A stretch of DNA of 64,000 nt, taken from Sporopachydermia quercuum. Its lineage: Eukaryota; Ascomycota; Sporopachydermiomycetes; Sporopachydermiales; Sporopachydermiaceae. Below, piece by piece: positions 16,196 through 64,000 of the stretch. The translations under genes and the position numbers were made by a program. The first letter of the stretch is position 1, and each line of letters opens with the position of its first letter. The stretch spans positions 2,416,925 through 2,480,924 of the forward strand of contig BCGN01000001.1 in the NCBI GenBank assembly GCA_001599295.1, in the 5' to 3' direction. The notes under the pieces were generated by a model that worked only from the letters and a program-made list of their open reading frames with translations, had not been told where the DNA came from and did not search any database.

Positions 16196-17280
16196 ATGAG
16201 TTCAAGTACAGGCTCAAGTTCTTCCACAGATCACCCTCTTGCTGCTAAGCATAAGAAAGCAGTCGAGAGGATTTTAAAATGCAAACCAACAGCTTATTAT
16301 AGCATTTTGCAAGTAGAACAAACGTCAACAAGTGACGAAATCAAAAGATCATATAGAAAGATTGCTATCACAGTGCATCCTGATAAAAATACTCAAGATG
16401 GATCAGCAGAAGCTTTCAAAAGTATGTTACTTTTTAATTTTTATATTTTAATTTTTATCATGCCATTTCAGAAAATGCATTATTTTGTTACAAAAATACT
16501 AACTGGTTTGATAAAATAGTGGTTTCCAAAGCATTTGCAGTGCTATCTGACCCAGATAAAAGACGAGTTTTTGACCAGACAGGCGCCGATCCTGAACAAG
16601 CAAGAACGCAAGCTGGTGCTGGCTTCCCTGGAGGAGAAGGTTTCGCCAGAGCAGACCCCGGTGGACCTCAATTCATGAACCCGGAGGATATTTTTGCTAG
16701 TTTCTTTGGTGGTGGTAATACATTTGCTTTCAATAATGGTGGATTTTACTCTTATGGATTCCCAAATGGACCACGAAGGGCTAGAAGGCCACAGCAGCAA
16801 CAACAGCAACGACAACAAGAAGGTTTCAAAATGAACCTACAAGTAGTCCTACTATTGTTAACCGTTCTTCTGCCAATGATTTTACCATATCTTTCATCTG
16901 NTTTGTCTTTTATCTTTGGTATCGTTGACGATGGTCCTGTGTCATCTAATGGAGTGGCACCAGTATTTGCATTCTACCAAGATGCCTCATATAATAAGGA
17001 ATTGAAATCACCCAAGCTTGATATTCCTTATTATGTGAACGAAAAGAAGTACGAGAACCTTCCCCAAAAGAGGAAAGATAAGATAGAAACTAATGTCGAT
17101 TACTATTACCTCCAAGACTTGAAACAGCGTTGTGATAATGAGTATTTATCCAAAGCAAGAATGATCGAACACTATAGAAGATCCAATGATGATAGAAGCG
17201 TATTGAAGTATATTGAAGCCATTAATGCCAAGGCTCCTTCTTGTGAAAGATATGTGGAGCTTAGTCAAAAACTACTGTAA
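16196..17280 (+). CDS. HLJ1: ER membrane J-domain co-chaperone (spliced)
   Basis: Exon 1 is 16196-16421 and exon 2 is 16520-17280; splicing gives 328 aa. The join restores the J-domain: helices I-II with HPD at residues 61-63 in exon 1, then AEAFK|MVSKAFAVLSDPDKRR across the junction. A Gly/Phe-rich stretch and Gln tract follow, then one membrane segment near residues 182-205 and a C-terminal domain, the arrangement of the Hlj1/DNAJB12 class. Hlj1 is a tail-region-anchored ER J-protein that recruits cytosolic Hsp70 for ER-associated degradation. It is longer than S. cerevisiae Hlj1 (224 aa) through the C-terminal domain, as in DNAJB12/14. One undetermined base (16901) lies in the membrane segment. 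Confidence 0.88.
16422..16519 (+). other. Spliceosomal intron in HLJ1
   Basis: 98-nt intron with 5' GTATGT, branch TACTAAC at 16498-16504 and 3' TAG at 16517-16519. Removing it joins two frames in a conserved J-domain position. Confidence 0.93.
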
Positions 17281-27221: not shown

Positions 27222-29189
27222 ATGTCTAATTCTAAAGCTAATAATGCAAACAATATAGAGCCAGATATCACTAGTATCATGCTCTTTCAAAACGATAACG
27301 CTCGGTCAAGAAGCCTCAAACGCACCAAAATATCTGCAGATTCAGAATCGTTATCCGCAGAGCAATTTGATGAATATCTTAAAGCAAGAAAAACAAGTGA
27401 TGTTTGGAAGTATTTTGTTTTCTCGTTGGATCAAGGTCGAGTCTTTTGCAAGTTATGTACAAGAAGTTATAAGTATGAAAAAGGTCAGAGCACCTCTAAT
27501 ATGTTAAAGCATATAAAATCCAAGCATGATTATCATTCCGACTCTACCAAATCTGTTGACTTGGCTTCATCATCTGCGACTACATCCAATGGAAATCCTA
27601 GATCTGTAGTCTTAGGTGCTGCAGCCCTCTTAAACTCTACTCCTAGTTCCAAAGCACGCGTAGGTAGTAAGAAAGAATATTCAATGAGAGAGACTCCTAA
27701 ATCTGAAAGTAGGAAAAGAGAGGTATTGGACATTGTTATTGGATTTCTAGTGGAAAATACTCTTCCAATATCAATAATATCATCTCCTTCATTTAAAGAA
27801 TTTCTTCGAATTTTCAAACCCAGTGATACTATTTCTTCATTACCTTCTGCTGAGACATTGTCGGAAACTATCTTACAACGATTTACAGAGAAGAAGACAA
27901 ATATCTTGAAGATATTAAAAAGTCAAGTATCAATAGGCATAACGTTTGACACTTGGAAATCTGCTAAATATGGTATGTTTATTGGTTATGCTGCCCATTT
28001 CATCGCTGAAGATATGACTAGTGTCTCTATTCCTTTAGCTATACAAGAGCTCTACGCACCTATCAGTGAAGAAGAGTTTAGTGGATTCCTAGAGCAAGTC
28101 CTGGATGACTTTCAAATTAAAAATATAATAATATCCATTACATGCAATAATTTGCTAATTGATTTCCAAAGACTGCCTAAATTAAATTTCGGCCAGGAAG
28201 TGTGTTTTGTTCGCAGTATTACTAATCTGGTAGACGACTTCTCGATCAATGTTTTGAGGGTTATCAACTCTGACACTGAAGGCTTACCTCATATTATCAA
28301 AAGGCTGCGTGATTTCTGTAGACGTCTTTGGCAAGATGAAGAGCTGAAGGCAAATTACTTAAGTTTCCATGGAGAGGCGACTTTACCTGTCTATAGAAAT
28401 AAAACAAATTTGGCATCCACTTTGACATCACTAGAAAGTCTCTATACTGAAAGAAATAGTTTGAACCAATTTATTGCTTTAAGAGGCCAAGAATTAGGTC
28501 TTGATGATTTTGCATTATCAGATTCTGATTGGAAAAGCGTGTTTGACGTTTATAGATTACTACAGTATTCTAAACAATTGAATGAGTATTTATCCAAAGA
28601 AAATTCTGGCAGTATTACTTTCTACGTCAGAGCCCTTTCTTTCTTTAGAAACCAACTAGAAGAGTTCTTATCTTCATCTATCAGTGCATATGTTTCTGAA
28701 GCTATTACGGTTTTGATCAATGAATTAGATGGGTTTTTACCGTTGATGGAGGAAAATACAAAGCTACAAGTCTGTAAATATTTACTTCCTGGTGGTAATA
28801 TTGAAAACTCAGGTGAAGCTATTGAAGTTTTAACTGAAGCTGCTAGTCCTTTTTTCGAATCAGCGTTGCCTTTGTTGAAAGATGGTGCAATTTCAGATGA
28901 TAATAATATTTTCACCAAGATTTATAAACCTAGAAATCCTAATACGATTGGTCGAGAAGTAGAAAGATACTTTACTGAGTTCCAGCAAGATCCTATGACA
29001 TTTTGGAAATCTTCTACCTCTTATCCATCTATTAAGAAAGTAGCAAGAATATATTTAGCTATTCAAGCTTGTTCTGGTAGTTCTGAACGTTTGCTTGATA
29101 AATGTCAGCAAATGGCAAGTAAGAGAGATGAAATGGACGTTGAATTATGGCATGCTATTATTCTATTGGAAGGATGGAGGGTTGTTTAA
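27222..29189 (+). CDS. Domesticated hAT transposase with BED zinc finger
   Basis: 655 aa from the ATG at 27222. An N-terminal BED finger (C76, C79, H97, H102, preceded by WKYFVF) would bind DNA. The middle has the hAT RNase-H block FDTWKSAKYGMF with its first Asp. At the second position the usual TDNA-type motif reads ITCNN, so that Asp is absent. The usual TRW-type motif is also not recognisable. The C-terminal hAT dimerisation region is kept (VARIYLAIQACSGSSERLL and a following LWHAIILLEGW). An intact long ORF with decayed catalytic residues and no visible terminal repeats indicates a host gene, probably a DNA-binding regulator. Its target is unknown. Confidence 0.82.
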   Translation: MSNSKANNANNIEPDITSIMLFQNDNARSRSLKRTKISADSESLSAEQFDEYLKARKTSDVWKYFVFSLDQGRVFCKLCTRSYKYEKGQSTSNMLKHIKSKHDYHSDSTKSVDLASSSATTSNGNPRSVVLGAAALLNSTPSSKARVGSKKEYSMRETPKSESRKREVLDIVIGFLVENTLPISIISSPSFKEFLRIFKPSDTISSLPSAETLSETILQRFTEKKTNILKILKSQVSIGITFDTWKSAKYGMFIGYAAHFIAEDMTSVSIPLAIQELYAPISEEEFSGFLEQVLDDFQIKNIIISITCNNLLIDFQRLPKLNFGQEVCFVRSITNLVDDFSINVLRVINSDTEGLPHIIKRLRDFCRRLWQDEELKANYLSFHGEATLPVYRNKTNLASTLTSLESLYTERNSLNQFIALRGQELGLDDFALSDSDWKSVFDVYRLLQYSKQLNEYLSKENSGSITFYVRALSFFRNQLEEFLSSSISAYVSEAITVLINELDGFLPLMEENTKLQVCKYLLPGGNIENSGEAIEVLTEAASPFFESALPLLKDGAISDDNNIFTKIYKPRNPNTIGREVERYFTEFQQDPMTFWKSSTSYPSIKKVARIYLAIQACSGSSERLLDKCQQMASKRDEMDVELWHAIILLEGWRVV

Positions 29190-57209: not shown

Positions 57210-58895
57210 TTAACTTCTATAATTTAGGTTTACTCTTTGCCTAAGTCTAGCTTTTTTGGTTTCTTGTAACTTGCGAATCTCTTCTTCGTTATCAGATTCT
57301 AAGCTACTTTCATCTTCACTTGGTTTTCCTAAGTGATTTCTTTCTTCTGATCCTTCTGTATGTAGAGAACTATTGTCCAGGTCTTCCGACTCCACCATGA
57401 TTTCAGGTATGGTGAACTTCCGATTGATTTTTTCTGTGGCAAGTAAAAGTTCTGGGGTTCCTTCTTGGTTCCCGTTGAGGGTACCAGCAGATTCTGATTG
57501 GTTCCTGGAAGGTTTGTGGCCACTTTGTCTTCGAAGGGACTTGACAATAGAGGAAGATTTTAAAGATTCGAGGTTGAGAAAAGAAAACTGTGAGCTGGTT
57601 TTCTTTTTCGAAGAATTCATAGGTTCAGTTTCCAGATTAGGGGTCCGTTCCTTCTGCAGCGAAACTCGTCGTGTATGTGCTTCGTCAGGTAGTTCTCTTA
57701 CCCATTGTGATTTGACAACCATATTTGAAGATCTATGTCTTTTCAAAAAGCTTGGTGTGTTTTCATAAACAGACGAAGATGTGTGAGATATTCCTGTATT
57801 TAGATTTTCACTTGAGCTGACTCCAGGCGTACCCGAATCATTGCTAAGATTGGGTGTTTGATTATTCGTGTTCGATAAAACATTGTTACGTATTTGAGAG
57901 GTTGAAGGGTAACAACGTACTGTTGATATTGGTGATGAGGATGAGGAAGAGGATGATGATAATAAAGCTAAATCTAGTTTTTCATTTAATTCTCTCAGGT
58001 ACGTCATTGTGACAGCGGTGAAGTTCGCGATCTGAAACACATCTTGAAGGTCATGGACAATTCTTTCGTTCAAGGATTCACTGATTTCAACTAAAGAGTC
58101 ACATCCTGGTTGACTCTCGTCAATATATGTCGATGCTTTAGCTAATTTGACAAGTCTTAAGATAAGACGCTTTCTCGAATTGAAATTCGAAGATGAACTT
58201 AGGTTTGACACAAAACTCCAATATTCCTCCAGTAAATCACTTATATCATTGTTTGGGGATTTACTAGCTATACGGATGAATAGCTGTGTCACTGTCTCCA
58301 AGAGAAAGATTTCATGCAAAGGAGAACCTTGCAAGATTGGATGTACTGAAAGCGTGCTGTCAAAAACTTGAAGAGTGTGAGTTAAAAGTGTAATCAATGA
58401 CTCATCATAGTCGTCTGTTCGTTTGCTCGATCTACTGTAAATTCTCATCAATATACTCAGAATTGCAATATTGGCTTTGGCAAAGATATTAATTAGCCTT
58501 TCTTCACTGTCACAATTACTCAAAATTCCTGGTACATTTAGATATATACTTTGAGGAGTCTGTTGCTGAAGCACCTGTTGTAAAGCATAGGGATAATATA
58601 AAGATAGAAAAAACTCTTGAATGGATTTCGCAAGAGCTAAATAAAAAAGACATTCATCCTGAGAGAGATTACTCAAGTCCACACAAGGTTGCTTTAATAA
58701 TTCAGATGTCTTCTCTGATTGACTTGAATAAAGCAGGAAGTGGATTAATTGATCTGCGTTTGAAAGTAATTGATTTGATTCACTTTTCACTAATTCTTTT
58801 AAAATGATTGGATCAACATTGACTTTTTCAGTATCTGTGTCAAGGACCTGGTGCAAGATATTGCCCTCATCTAGTAAACTCAAAAGTGCCTCCAT
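57210..58895 (-). CDS. Unrecognised protein with helical N-terminus and disordered C-terminus
   Basis: 561 aa from the ATG at 58895. Residues 1 to about 310 look alpha-helical (regular Leu/Ile pattern, few Gly/Pro), possibly HEAT- or armadillo-like. A run of nine serines follows (about 316-324), then a Ser/Asn-rich disordered half with basic patches (KKKTSSQF, SLRRQSGHKPSR) that suggest phosphorylation, and an acidic stretch before a basic end. No signal peptide or membrane segment. A continuous ORF of this length with a clean start supports a real gene. I do not recognise the family. It converges with HSP82 with a 271-base gap. Confidence 0.8.
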   Translation of the reverse strand: MEALLSLLDEGNILHQVLDTDTEKVNVDPIILKELVKSESNQLLSNADQLIHFLLYSSQSEKTSELLKQPCVDLSNLSQDECLFYLALAKSIQEFFLSLYYPYALQQVLQQQTPQSIYLNVPGILSNCDSEERLINIFAKANIAILSILMRIYSRSSKRTDDYDESLITLLTHTLQVFDSTLSVHPILQGSPLHEIFLLETVTQLFIRIASKSPNNDISDLLEEYWSFVSNLSSSSNFNSRKRLILRLVKLAKASTYIDESQPGCDSLVEISESLNERIVHDLQDVFQIANFTAVTMTYLRELNEKLDLALLSSSSSSSSSPISTVRCYPSTSQIRNNVLSNTNNQTPNLSNDSGTPGVSSSENLNTGISHTSSSVYENTPSFLKRHRSSNMVVKSQWVRELPDEAHTRRVSLQKERTPNLETEPMNSSKKKTSSQFSFLNLESLKSSSIVKSLRRQSGHKPSRNQSESAGTLNGNQEGTPELLLATEKINRKFTIPEIMVESEDLDNSSLHTEGSEERNHLGKPSEDESSLESDNEEEIRKLQETKKARLRQRVNLNYRS

Positions 58896-60454
58896 TTTTC
58901 GTTTCTCTTGTTCATACTAATTGGACAAACGCGCCAAACGAACAAAACAAAACAAAGCAATTTGATTGCCAACACCTTGACTGTGACAATAATTTTTATA
59001 TTAATAGTTCACTTTTGTGTTTTTCAAAGACTTAGGACATCCTCCGTGTGTTTCACCTGAGAAATCCATAATCGAAGCAACCACATGTGTAGTTGATTAT
59101 TTGCACTTAATTCCCTCAAGAATAAAATAGTAATTAATGACAATTCAATTGTTTATTGGGAGTTGCTATTGCAACTTCTGCATTTCTCTGATCAAAAGAT
59201 TATGTAATCTCAAATAAATAGCATTCTGGAGGTGATGAGAAGCGTGATTTGAATAGCCAAACTCTATTTTGCTCAATTATCCCATTTCAGGTTTGGCTCA
59301 TATTCCTTGAATAGATAAAATAGGTTTGAAGATATGGTTTGGTTACTTGTTGTAATAGACAAATCGCCACTATGAGTGATTCGATTAAAGTAGAATTATA
59401 AATAATTCCTTCAATGCATAATAATCAAATCTAAATGAACCCTTACCTATTACCGATTTATGAGTCAGTTGAAACTAGCAGATACATTTATTGCAATAGA
59501 AGTATCACGAATAACAGCTGATATACAAGTTGCAGGTTACTGATTTCTTTCATTTGAACAGTAAATTTTGATTAAGACAAGCAAGTGTTCGTTTAAATCA
59601 TAGATTCTGGGCAAATTTCCCCGAACAGAAATAAAACTGTATCTCCTTCTGTCGAACTAAGCAATATTCACGAGTATGGAAAAGAAACGAAATTGATATT
59701 ACTGCAATCACAGAACACTGGATATACATTAGTTGTATTCATATATATACAGAGAAAAGAGAATGAGGTTAACGTGACATTATCCTCCCACTAAGCTGAT
59801 TGTTCACACTATGCAAATGAAAATATATGTTGGACAATGATTACCTTACACGGAGAAATCAATACACCTCCAAATTGTAAGCATATGTTACTGAAAAATT
59901 AGTGAACATTCACGAGTATATAGACATCTANCAATGATTACTGGACTTTTAACCAACTACTTTTGCCAGTTATTTTGGTCTAACTAGAAAATTACTTAGA
60001 AATGAAATCAATTACAACCGGTAATCAAATCAAATCTGTGTGAAGCTTATTCATAGTTAGCGAGCGATACAGAAATAAGGTGAATACTTGATAATCTCAT
60101 AATTTCATGTTCAAAAGTTTCATCTATGATTAGCGTGGGAATAGCAAATCCTGTAGAATAATCATTAGATTGGCTGTTCCCAAACTTCTACATGAACCCA
60201 TTAATTATAACCTCAAGCAGGTTCGAAATTCCACCTTTACACTCTGGCATTACTGTATTTAGTAAATTTCAACTAAGTATTGAGTTGAAAAATTAATCCT
60301 ATTCCCCAAACCATAAACCCAAATGTTAGTTATCCCATCTCATGTCGAAGAAGAAGAGTCAGCAACGCTTAGAGTGACTGCTCAATATCAGAAGACTCCA
60401 GGAACCAGATTACTTGGGGTAAATTAGTATAATAGTCCTACCCAGTAACAGCAA

Positions 60455-60486
60455 CACAATGGTCGAACACAATGGTCGAACACAAT
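60455..60486. repeat. 13-bp tandem repeat, 2.5 copies
   Basis: Unit CACAATGGTCGAA occurs twice exactly, followed by a partial third copy CACAAT. No function is apparent. Confidence 0.8.
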
Positions 60487-61267
60487 AGGCCATATAACTA
60501 TAGATATCGCATTGTATTAGTAGCGTATTGGTCCATTTTCCATGTTAACAAAAATTGACCAGCTTTGATTTGTTCCTGAGCAACAAAGATGGAACTTAAA
60601 ATAGATAGAATACCTAAAATGGCAATGAAGATTGTTTTTAAAAGTGTACGTATCACTCAGTATGTGACCTGGTATACCACAGCAATAAGCAATCATGAGA
60701 CAGGTTCATGGCAATTAAATGCTACCCCATTAGGCAATTGAAATTTAAGGGTTTTTCTCTGTATAAACCCTAAAAAAATATTCGCAGAATATACCAATAG
60801 TACATTCAAGTGTGAGAACAATTGCACCATGGATATTTGAGCAAAAGAGAATGACTATTGAATCATTTTTCACTTTAATAACATTTTTGTTTTCCTTTTT
60901 AATAGAAATTACCCTCTGTGAAAGCTACACTGCAACTTTTATGATATCCATAAGTTAAGATTTATTTCCATTTTAGCCGTGAGAATTAATAACTTGGGAT
61001 CAAAAAGTAAGTTAGCAACCATAATTGAAATTTATGTATAATAATTTACTAGATATTCTTAGATTGGAAACTTCAATGTCAATGGCCGATACCAACACTG
61101 TTCTGGAACACAACTTAATACCTTCGAATGAACCTTAGTGATGAATACTTTATTTTCTTTTCCAGGGGTATAAGTATGGATTCTCCTATGCGTTTGGCAT
61201 TGGAACGCAACAATATCAATTACAATTTACAATTTAAGAGTCCGTTCGATTTCCATTCTTTTACGGC

Positions 61268-61489
61268 CTATTGAAATTGACGACCACCAGAACGTATAAT
61301 GACGCGAAACTCTTTCTGCTTCCTAAAGGCTTCCATATCGCCTTTGATACTGACTGGAACATGAGTTGCATCAAGTGTACCCAATCAATTACGCAATAAA
61401 GGTGAGCCTTCTACCAAACTACTAATACTTGGAACGGGCAATCTAATCCATTTTGTTACAGATTTTCTGAAGTACATGCACATCTCCCG
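61268..61489 (-). pseudogene. Relic of a PIF/Harbinger-like DDE transposase
   Basis: One frame of 74 codons with a single internal TGA (61385-61387) before a TAG. Around that stop it reads SPLLRN*LGTLDATHVPV, which matches the Harbinger hallmark [N-C-I/L-G-A-I-D-G-T-H-I-P] at the first catalytic Asp; TGA sits where the family has Cys, one base from TGC/TGT. FRKQKEFRV follows, as in the family's NRKG-type segment. Upstream in the same frame is FREMCMYFRKSVTKWIRLP, like the pre-catalytic helix. The second and third acidic residues are not found, and the frame breaks soon after. It is an old, dead copy; terminal repeats were not recognised. Confidence 0.65.
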
Positions 61490-63040
61490 GAATTTTCAGA
61501 CTCTTCGGATATTATATCTGGTTCAGACTTAATAAATACTTTCTGACATGAATGTAGTACACATTATGATGTATTAGATTGTGTAATAATAATGAGAAAT
61601 TTGTATTTATGGGCTCTTTCATGGCCTGACAGCTATCATTCAAAAGTGTGTTTGCTGATAAATGAAGATTATAAATGGATTGAATTGAGACTTGATGTAA
61701 ATATAGTTACCCGTCCTAAGTAAGATTTGATCAGAATGAACAGATAAAATCCCAGAATACCTGAAAATAATAAGAAAAACAGTAACCGAACAGAGCACGA
61801 ACCTGCTTAAAGTGTTCAACATAACTTAGCAATTACAACAAGCTGAACTTGATAAATTGACAAAAATACTGGTTGCTTTGAGCTAGAATATAATTCCTTT
61901 TTGTGTGTTCTATTTTTGATGATTCTACAAAAATCTTTGAAGCCTTCCAGGGTTGTTTGACGGCAGTTCAATAGATAATTACCCTTTGATAGTAGAAATA
62001 ATCATTCTGCGTCTTCTCAACTAGAGAAGAATAAATAGTTTACTGGAGGAGTTATTTGGCTGATTCATTAATTGAGAATCATCAATTAGTTGCTGGAAAT
62101 TATTACAATTGAAATAGTGCAATACTAGTCATTATAGTTGTTATAGTTGCTAAAGTTGTTGTCCTTCCGATGATTATTACTTCTCAACCCTTCGATTAAT
62201 AATAGAATAGCTCGAAGAGTAGTAATAATTTAGTGGTTATGTATCGTTGCATCGCGGTTTGCAAAAGTAAATGTTTTCAATATGAGTCCGCTTTGGGTAG
62301 TAATCTCTAACTTTCCCCAATTGTTTGCATAATAAATGACTAAATCCCTAAGTAACTACGTCTTAGGTGGTATTCTATTTAAACGAATTAGAGTTAACAA
62401 AAACTAATTGGCCCAACTTGCTTGTTATGTAGCAACAATAGTGATTCGTCGCAGCCAGATCTAGCTAAACTTAAAATGAATTCCCATTAGGGCAATTGGT
62501 TTTCTGTTTATCTTTTGAAAAGGGTAGCTCAATGTGTTGCGAAAAAAAAGTGTGTACTTAATCTGTATATTTTCAAAATGATATACATCCATTATTGGGA
62601 CAATAAAAAGCTGAACAAATTATAACAATAAAAGTTTATTTGCTTTGTATTAATAAATTGTCGAAGAAGTTAGACATCCTGAATTGATTTATGAAAGTTG
62701 ACAATTGAATTATTTCATTGATTTCAGTGAGGGTAATCATTCTCTAATGTGCCTGCTTTTGTTTATCATTATTTTCATTGGTCTATAGATCCAAATTGGG
62801 AGACTAGTTTGCTGGTTTGCCAAAAACCTGAACTATAATTAAGTTTCAACGGTTTTATACGTAAGTATTTTAATAAAGTTGCGGAAAATGGGAATGAAAT
62901 CTGGTTCTTCATTGCTATTCTTGCTACAAGTGATTTCTCCACCAGAAAGTCTTAACTTTACACATATATAATTTTTAACGATTATATTGTGACAATAATA
63001 TAATGCTCCCCACTATGACGAAGCTTCTTTTTCAAATACA

Positions 63041-63059
63041 TATATATATATATATATAT
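63041..63059. repeat. TA microsatellite
   Basis: Perfect TA repeat about 200 bases before the ATG at 63257. It could serve as a TATA region for the secreted protein. Confidence 0.8.
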
Positions 63060-63256
63060 GGTGGTAGATGTCACCATTGTGCCTGAGATTTCAATAAATG
63101 TAGATTTATATATTCTATGCTCTCTAATATTGTAAAGACATTCACTTTCGGCCGTACTAATATAGGGTAGATCTACAAATAGATCAACATCCATATAATC
63201 ACTCACACATACGCATACTCTCTCTACTAGTTTTTCCTAACGTATATCCAACCACA

Positions 63257-64000
63257 ATGTTTGGAAACACAGTACTGACGTTTGTCAGTATTCTGTTTTT
63301 CCTTACGCTTTCTCAGAAATCAACTGCTGTGCCAGTTGCGTCCTCTCTTGAAAAGCGTGGTTCATCATACTATCCAGAACCTGAGCTACCTAGTATATCT
63401 GGTTGCGACTTCATCAACAAATGCCCTAATGTTTTTTTTCCCAACCCTCCCAACAGCGGCTTATTCTTCACTATGACACCAGTAGATTATAAGCAAATTC
63501 AAGGACAAACATTCGATATCACCATCCGAGTTCAGATGCCTGGTAGTGATCTTACCTTGGCTGATGTCAGAGAATTGAAATGGGTCACTCCCTCTAAGAT
63601 GCTTTTCTCTCGTCAAAATTCAAATACTTGTAAAGTGAGCCAGAGCTCAAATGAAGTTTCCACATTGACTGACTTTGAATCTACTATCACGGTTGACTTA
63701 AATGATGATGGTGATAGATGGTGTTTCCCAGAAATCATGCTTCAATACGACTTTCAATATGGTATCTGTCCTAACGGTGATGTTGATGAGACTCCGCTTC
63801 AAGCAACTGGAACAGCTTCAGGCGATCCTTCTTTAAACTGTAACGCTGATAATATGAACAAAGGTCAAAAGAATTCTCCGCAATACTGCATTCCAAAGAG
63901 TTGCGGTACCACAGCTCCATCCAGCTCTGTGCCAGCTTTTTCTGCCTCTAGTGCAGCACCAGCTGAACCATCCAGTGCAGCACCATCTAGTGCAGCACCA
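63257..64000 (+). CDS. Secreted Ser/Ala/Pro-repeat protein (3' truncated by window)
   Basis: 248 codons visible, open to the window edge. N-terminal signal peptide of about 24 residues, then a short propeptide ending in SLEKR with a Lys-Arg Kex2 site at residues 33-34. A Cys-containing domain (about 40-225) with several aromatic and acidic positions follows. From about residue 228 the protein turns into Ser/Ala/Pro repeats (SSAAP, SSAP units) likely to be O-mannosylated. This is the build of a fungal wall or adhesin-type mannoprotein. I do not recognise the N-terminal domain. A GPI signal would lie beyond the edge. Confidence 0.8.
   Translation, partial: MFGNTVLTFVSILFFLTLSQKSTAVPVASSLEKRGSSYYPEPELPSISGCDFINKCPNVFFPNPPNSGLFFTMTPVDYKQIQGQTFDITIRVQMPGSDLTLADVRELKWVTPSKMLFSRQNSNTCKVSQSSNEVSTLTDFESTITVDLNDDGDRWCFPEIMLQYDFQYGICPNGDVDETPLQATGTASGDPSLNCNADNMNKGQKNSPQYCIPKSCGTTAPSSSVPAFSASSAAPAEPSSAAPSSAAP

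Follow-up and report, generated by a model that had tools for sequence, protein, structure and literature searches.

The systems closest to the feature described here are DNA transposons of the PIF/Harbinger (PHIS) superfamily. The account of grass PIF, in the passages concerned, gives GAMDGTH as the published motif, places the second Asp 75 residues after the first, and describes TTA/TAA duplications together with terminal repeats of 14-25 bp (PMC4565680); a section of a second paper gives the PIF/Harbinger duplications as TWA and an average length of about 4.1 kb for candidate autonomous elements (PMC4482050). Excerpts of further reports record the superfamily in fungi, Puccinia rusts among them (PMC4482050, PMC12730594), and Harbinger elements in Cryptococcus neoformans (PMC7175516). 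No report of a Harbinger transposase in Saccharomycotina was found in the literature searched, and the relevant passage of PMC3212892 mentions HARBI1 only. The nearest published cases, as they appear in passages of the two papers, are the centromeres of Dekkera bruxellensis, where stretches of 40-90 bp show nucleotide similarity to several types of element, Harbinger included (PMC4999066), and fragments of PIF/Harbinger in fungal introns of recent origin, in a passage that names no species (PMC8476143).

Here we describe a short peptide spelled by the minus strand of an intergenic gap in a 64 kb window (the whole stretch of DNA that was analysed). The peptide looks like the first-catalytic-Asp block of these transposases, and a first-pass annotation had read it as a dead PIF/Harbinger-like transposase. 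The preferred reading (probability about 0.58) is that AT-rich DNA between genes resembles this block by chance, which is somewhat likelier than a heavily decayed PIF/Harbinger relic, and the feature is at best an unproven fossil.

Genomic context

The neighbouring genes are budding-yeast-like. They include an HSP90, for which the closest chains are yeast HSC82/HSP82, a gene for the catalytic subunit of DNA polymerase delta (aligned to its best-matching chain), and others whose products have VHS/FYVE, LCAT, Autophagy_act_C, XPA and Whi5 domains. In the listed part of the polymerase delta alignment there are seven CTG codons (an eighth lies outside it), six of them opposite Leu and one opposite Cys, and CTG is therefore read as Leu. 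The host is a budding yeast that uses the standard code.

Several other features of the window are noted. An intact plus-strand ORF of 655 aa (27222-29189) combines a BED zinc finger (E = 1.4e-8) with a C-terminal dimerisation region of hAT type (E = 2.7e-6), and would be either a hAT-like transposase or a hAT-derived host gene. At 16196-17280, also on the plus strand, a DnaJ-domain ORF (16196-16519) meets an ORF in a different frame (16519-17280), and the two may be halves of a single gene, separated by a frameshift or a sequencing error. The window also contains 15 N letters between positions 1090 and 59931, two adjacent and the others single, several of which lie within ORFs. There is no tRNA, and no Rfam match at gathering score, in the 64 kb.

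The peptide lies in a gap between two yeast genes (Table 1) that contains no ORF of at least 100 aa. The gene to its right begins in the window (63257-64000, plus strand) and continues past it; its product looks secreted and has a Ser/Ala/Pro-rich end.

Table 1. Coordinates of the Harbinger-like peptide, the gap in which it lies and the flanking genes
Feature	Position in window	Strand	Basis or remarks
Intergenic gap holding the feature	58896-63256	.	4.36 kb, between two yeast genes
Left flanking gene	57210-58895	minus	561 aa, no Pfam match up to E = 1
Right flanking gene	63257 onward	plus	Flo11 domain matched weakly (21.3 bits against a cut-off of 25, E = 0.00033)
Frame with Harbinger-like peptide, one internal TGA and terminal stop	61268-61495	minus	Translation
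Hallmark-like core RN*LGTLDATHVPV	61352-61393	minus	Translation, pattern search
Internal TGA	61387-61385	minus	Within core
Putative first catalytic Asp codon	61372-61370	minus	Within core
SIKGDMEAFRKQKE, 14 residues after core	61310-61351	minus	PF13359 carrier test
FREMCMYFRK, upstream segment	61463-61492	minus	Present in translation

The peptide and its frame

The minus strand from 61495 to 61268 translates as KFREMCMYFRKSVTKWIRLPVPSISSLVEGSPLLRN*LGTLDATHVPVSIKGDMEAFRKQKEFRVIIRSGGRQFQ*, in which the core and the upstream FREMCMYFRK segment are both present exactly as first quoted. The placing of the internal TGA at a Cys position also holds, both for our hand-written family consensus and for a natural sequence, L001, which reads NCIGALDG. 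L001 is an animal-type Harbinger transposase fragment on contig JAHZIU010000197.1 (2001-2189); the contig is filed under a betaproteobacterial MAG and is probably eukaryotic contamination. After the core the window's peptide has FRKQKE, at the position of the YRNRKG-like block in the hand-written consensus. FREMCMYFRK itself has no independent support as a Harbinger segment: of the sequences compared, the hand-written fungal consensus is the only one to which the stretch before the core is significantly similar.

The frame and the motif were compared with random controls made by Markov models of the window or the gap, of order 1 for motif patterns and order 2 elsewhere. The gap has 16 stretches of at least 75 codons interrupted by a single stop, where 300 random gaps have a mean of 18.6. 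The open frame at 61268-61495 is ordinary for its sequence context; its length is no greater than in random sequence, one of the two outcomes that the first-pass annotation had named as refuting its reading, and it was rejected as evidence for a relic. The motif is rarer. The pattern [ILVM]Gx[ILVM]D[AGCS][TS][HY] is present once in the six frames of the window against 0.01 times per random window (n = 200), a stricter version extended to HVPV-like residues once against none in 200 random windows, and a looser core pattern twice against 0.275 times per random window, all of these patterns having been written after the motif was seen, when the hallmarks of many other families could equally have caught the eye.

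Similarity to Harbinger transposases

No Pfam family is matched up to E = 10 when the frame is read in three X-masked versions. In the six frames of 60801-62000 there is no match to DDE_Tnp_4, the other outcome named by the first-pass annotation as refuting its reading; the sole match is to DUF713, in a plus frame (E = 0.12). The power of this test is low because the PF13359 profile begins at about the Asp, and even an intact 70-aa piece taken from the hand-written fungal consensus scores just 18.3 bits (E = 0.0019). No PDB relative emerges; the best match is a uridine phosphorylase (E = 1.6), over residues 57-95 of the piece, after the core.

Pairwise alignments used L001, the one natural homologue, and four hand-written consensus sequences (fungal, plant-type, animal-type and HARBI1-like). 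The scores of the hand-written sequences are optimistic because these were typed after the window had been viewed. Smith-Waterman alignment over the gap gives 71 for the fungal consensus (reached by none of 400 random gaps), 53 for the plant-type (3/400), 48 for the HARBI1-like (2/400) and 36 for L001 (254/400), and all four align best at the 61268-61495 spot; the animal-type consensus aligns best elsewhere in the gap, with a score of 36 that 267 of the 400 random gaps reach. When the stretch before the core is taken alone, the numbers of 3000 random pieces that do as well are 6 for the fungal consensus, 1788 for the plant, 209 for the animal, 1503 for the HARBI1-like and 1403 for L001. The corresponding numbers for the stretch after the core are 568, 803, 2001, 616 and 271, and against 1000 of its own shuffles this stretch is equalled 46 times with L001 and 163 to 368 times with the other four.

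Home-made profiles rank the spot first. One built from the four hand-written sequences and L001 places it at the top of the window with E = 0.023, the next match having E = 2.2, and one from the fungal and plant sequences does so with E = 0.014, followed by 1.1. In three profiles calibrated on 150 random windows the spot is again the best of the window each time, and its score is reached by two random windows with all five sequences, by three without the fungal sequence and by none with the plant and HARBI1-like sequences only. On these comparisons the case for more than a chance resemblance is marginal.

The real PF13359 profile was also applied to composite sequences. A hand-written consensus without its first-Asp block, the long carrier, scores 88.1 bits, rising to 111.5 bits with the consensus block and to 97.0 bits with the window's block, a gain of 8.9 bits for the latter; three unrelated pieces give 90.3, 87.7 and 88.5 bits, changes of -0.4 to 2.2. 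With the window's core followed by hand-shuffled residues the long carrier scores 93.4 and 90.3 bits, and with an unrelated replacement for the core followed by the window's own residues it scores 94.7 bits. A shorter carrier gives 29.1 bits alone, 38.0 bits with the window's block (E = 1.7e-9) and 52.4 bits with the consensus block. With core and carrier held fixed, the 14 residues after the core outscore all 50 random 14-mers that were scored, of 60 generated (1.7e-9 against 4.7e-9 for the best random piece). The fit of these residues, a part of the peptide that the earlier reading had left unquoted, is modest support for a relic.

Other transposon features

Apart from the peptide and its stops, the tests run detect no other feature of a transposon. 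Within the gap, nothing at E = 10 or better matches the second Asp or the FNxRH/Glu block (profile positions beyond 56), and among the best six matches to each calibrated profile those of the spot end at position 56 to 58. Terminal inverted repeats next to TTA/TAA duplications are no more frequent in the gap than expected by chance: one pair of 12-nt inverted repeats with such duplications flanks the spot (two mismatches), against 0.83 expected from 30 random gaps. Other inverted repeats, such as 60611-60631 and 62906-62926, were considered as element ends and dropped, flanking TTA/TAA pairs being at chance level. The second ORF of PIF/Harbinger elements encodes a DNA-binding protein, of Myb/SANT type in several groups, and no Pfam match to such a protein is found in the six frames of 60801-62000.

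Relatives in other genomes

A scan of genome contigs yields 38 pattern matches, of which one, L001, is a relative. Among viral contigs, two scans give 4 and 64 pattern matches with no relative by tblastn at E 1e-3 and five scans give no match; the eighth scan gives L003, a contig that reads as an RNA phage from its ORFs and had matched one pattern by chance. A search of 398 prokaryote genomes returns a single match, L004 (1501-1770), which shares 30% identity with the hand-written fungal consensus over residues 67-152 of the latter (E = 4.6e-4). It has two internal stops, the Asp block lies outside the match, and it is either a chance match or a contaminant relic. No Harbinger relative was found in the plasmids searched.

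Origin of the resemblance

Most likely the locus is AT-rich DNA between two budding-yeast genes that codes for no protein, and in it an open stretch of ordinary chance length would happen to spell a peptide of 11 to 17 residues resembling the first-catalytic-Asp block of PIF/Harbinger. Such a stretch would encode nothing and would have no role as a transposase. We infer that the resemblance is accidental, and the breadth of the original choice also argues for chance, as a reader could probably have matched many other families. A relic is not established by a score that 0 to 2% of random windows also attain, for a family that was picked after the sequence had been read and for which no report from the host group was found.

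The alternative is that the peptide is what is left of a heavily decayed PIF/Harbinger (PHIS) transposase, inserted between the two genes by cut-and-paste transposition and then inactivated and eroded. We regard this as a tenable second choice, kept in view by the fit of the post-core residues to PF13359. It would also be consistent with the spot being the top profile match of the window, with the success of the post-core residues against every random piece under PF13359 and the gain in bits under the real Pfam profile, and with the closeness of GTLDATH to the GAMDGTH given for grass PIF in a passage of PMC4565680. The hAT-like ORF elsewhere in the window implies that genes of DNA-transposon type occur in the lineage. 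Only the first-Asp block would still be recognisable, with TGA replacing the common Cys. Against a relic, however, are the lack of a DDE_Tnp_4 match, the absence of a second Asp or Glu block from the gap, terminal repeats at chance level, and a pre-core half backed by the hand-written fungal consensus only (6/3000 random pieces as good). The first-pass assignment to the Harbinger family retains modest support from the post-core fit and the profile ranks, and as a whole is rated below chance resemblance; its further suggestion of a past invasion of the lineage is not warranted yet.

Very improbable is a third explanation, in which the peptide merely looks like Harbinger and comes from the remnant of some other gene for a protein, or from a short conserved feature that the gap has without annotation: the gene with the weak match to the Flo11 domain adjoins the gap, and places beside Flo11-type genes are where gene remnants tend to collect, but the six frames of 60801-62000 hold no Pfam match better than that to DUF713, Rfam and tRNA matches are absent, and the statistics of the stretch are ordinary.

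A true PIF/Harbinger fossil here would be one in a standard-code budding yeast, from a group with no Harbinger transposase report in the literature searched, and we think it possible, if on balance doubtful. It would mean that the superfamily once reached this budding-yeast lineage, adding a DNA-transposon superfamily to its history. As the evidence stands, the main lesson is that AT-rich DNA between genes can produce a striking motif of 11 residues that mimics a dead gene; as many as 3 of the 150 random windows contain an equally good match to a Harbinger profile.

Comparison with known systems

The spot in the window differs from PIF/Harbinger transposases (PHIS; DDE_Tnp_4, PF13359) in being without a significant profile match, a second Asp/Glu block or terminal repeats above chance, and in having an interrupted frame at a single place in the window. 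It is like them in the G-x-hydrophobic-D-x-T-H at the putative first Asp, which is GTLDATH here and GA-hydrophobic-DGTH in the family, and in the FRKQKE block, which follows this Asp at a suitable spacing. The relationship to L001 is similarly mixed, in that the alignment score of 36 is no better than in random gaps, whereas the best alignment in the gap lands on the window's core, and the NCIGALDGKH block of L001 has Cys where the window has TGA.
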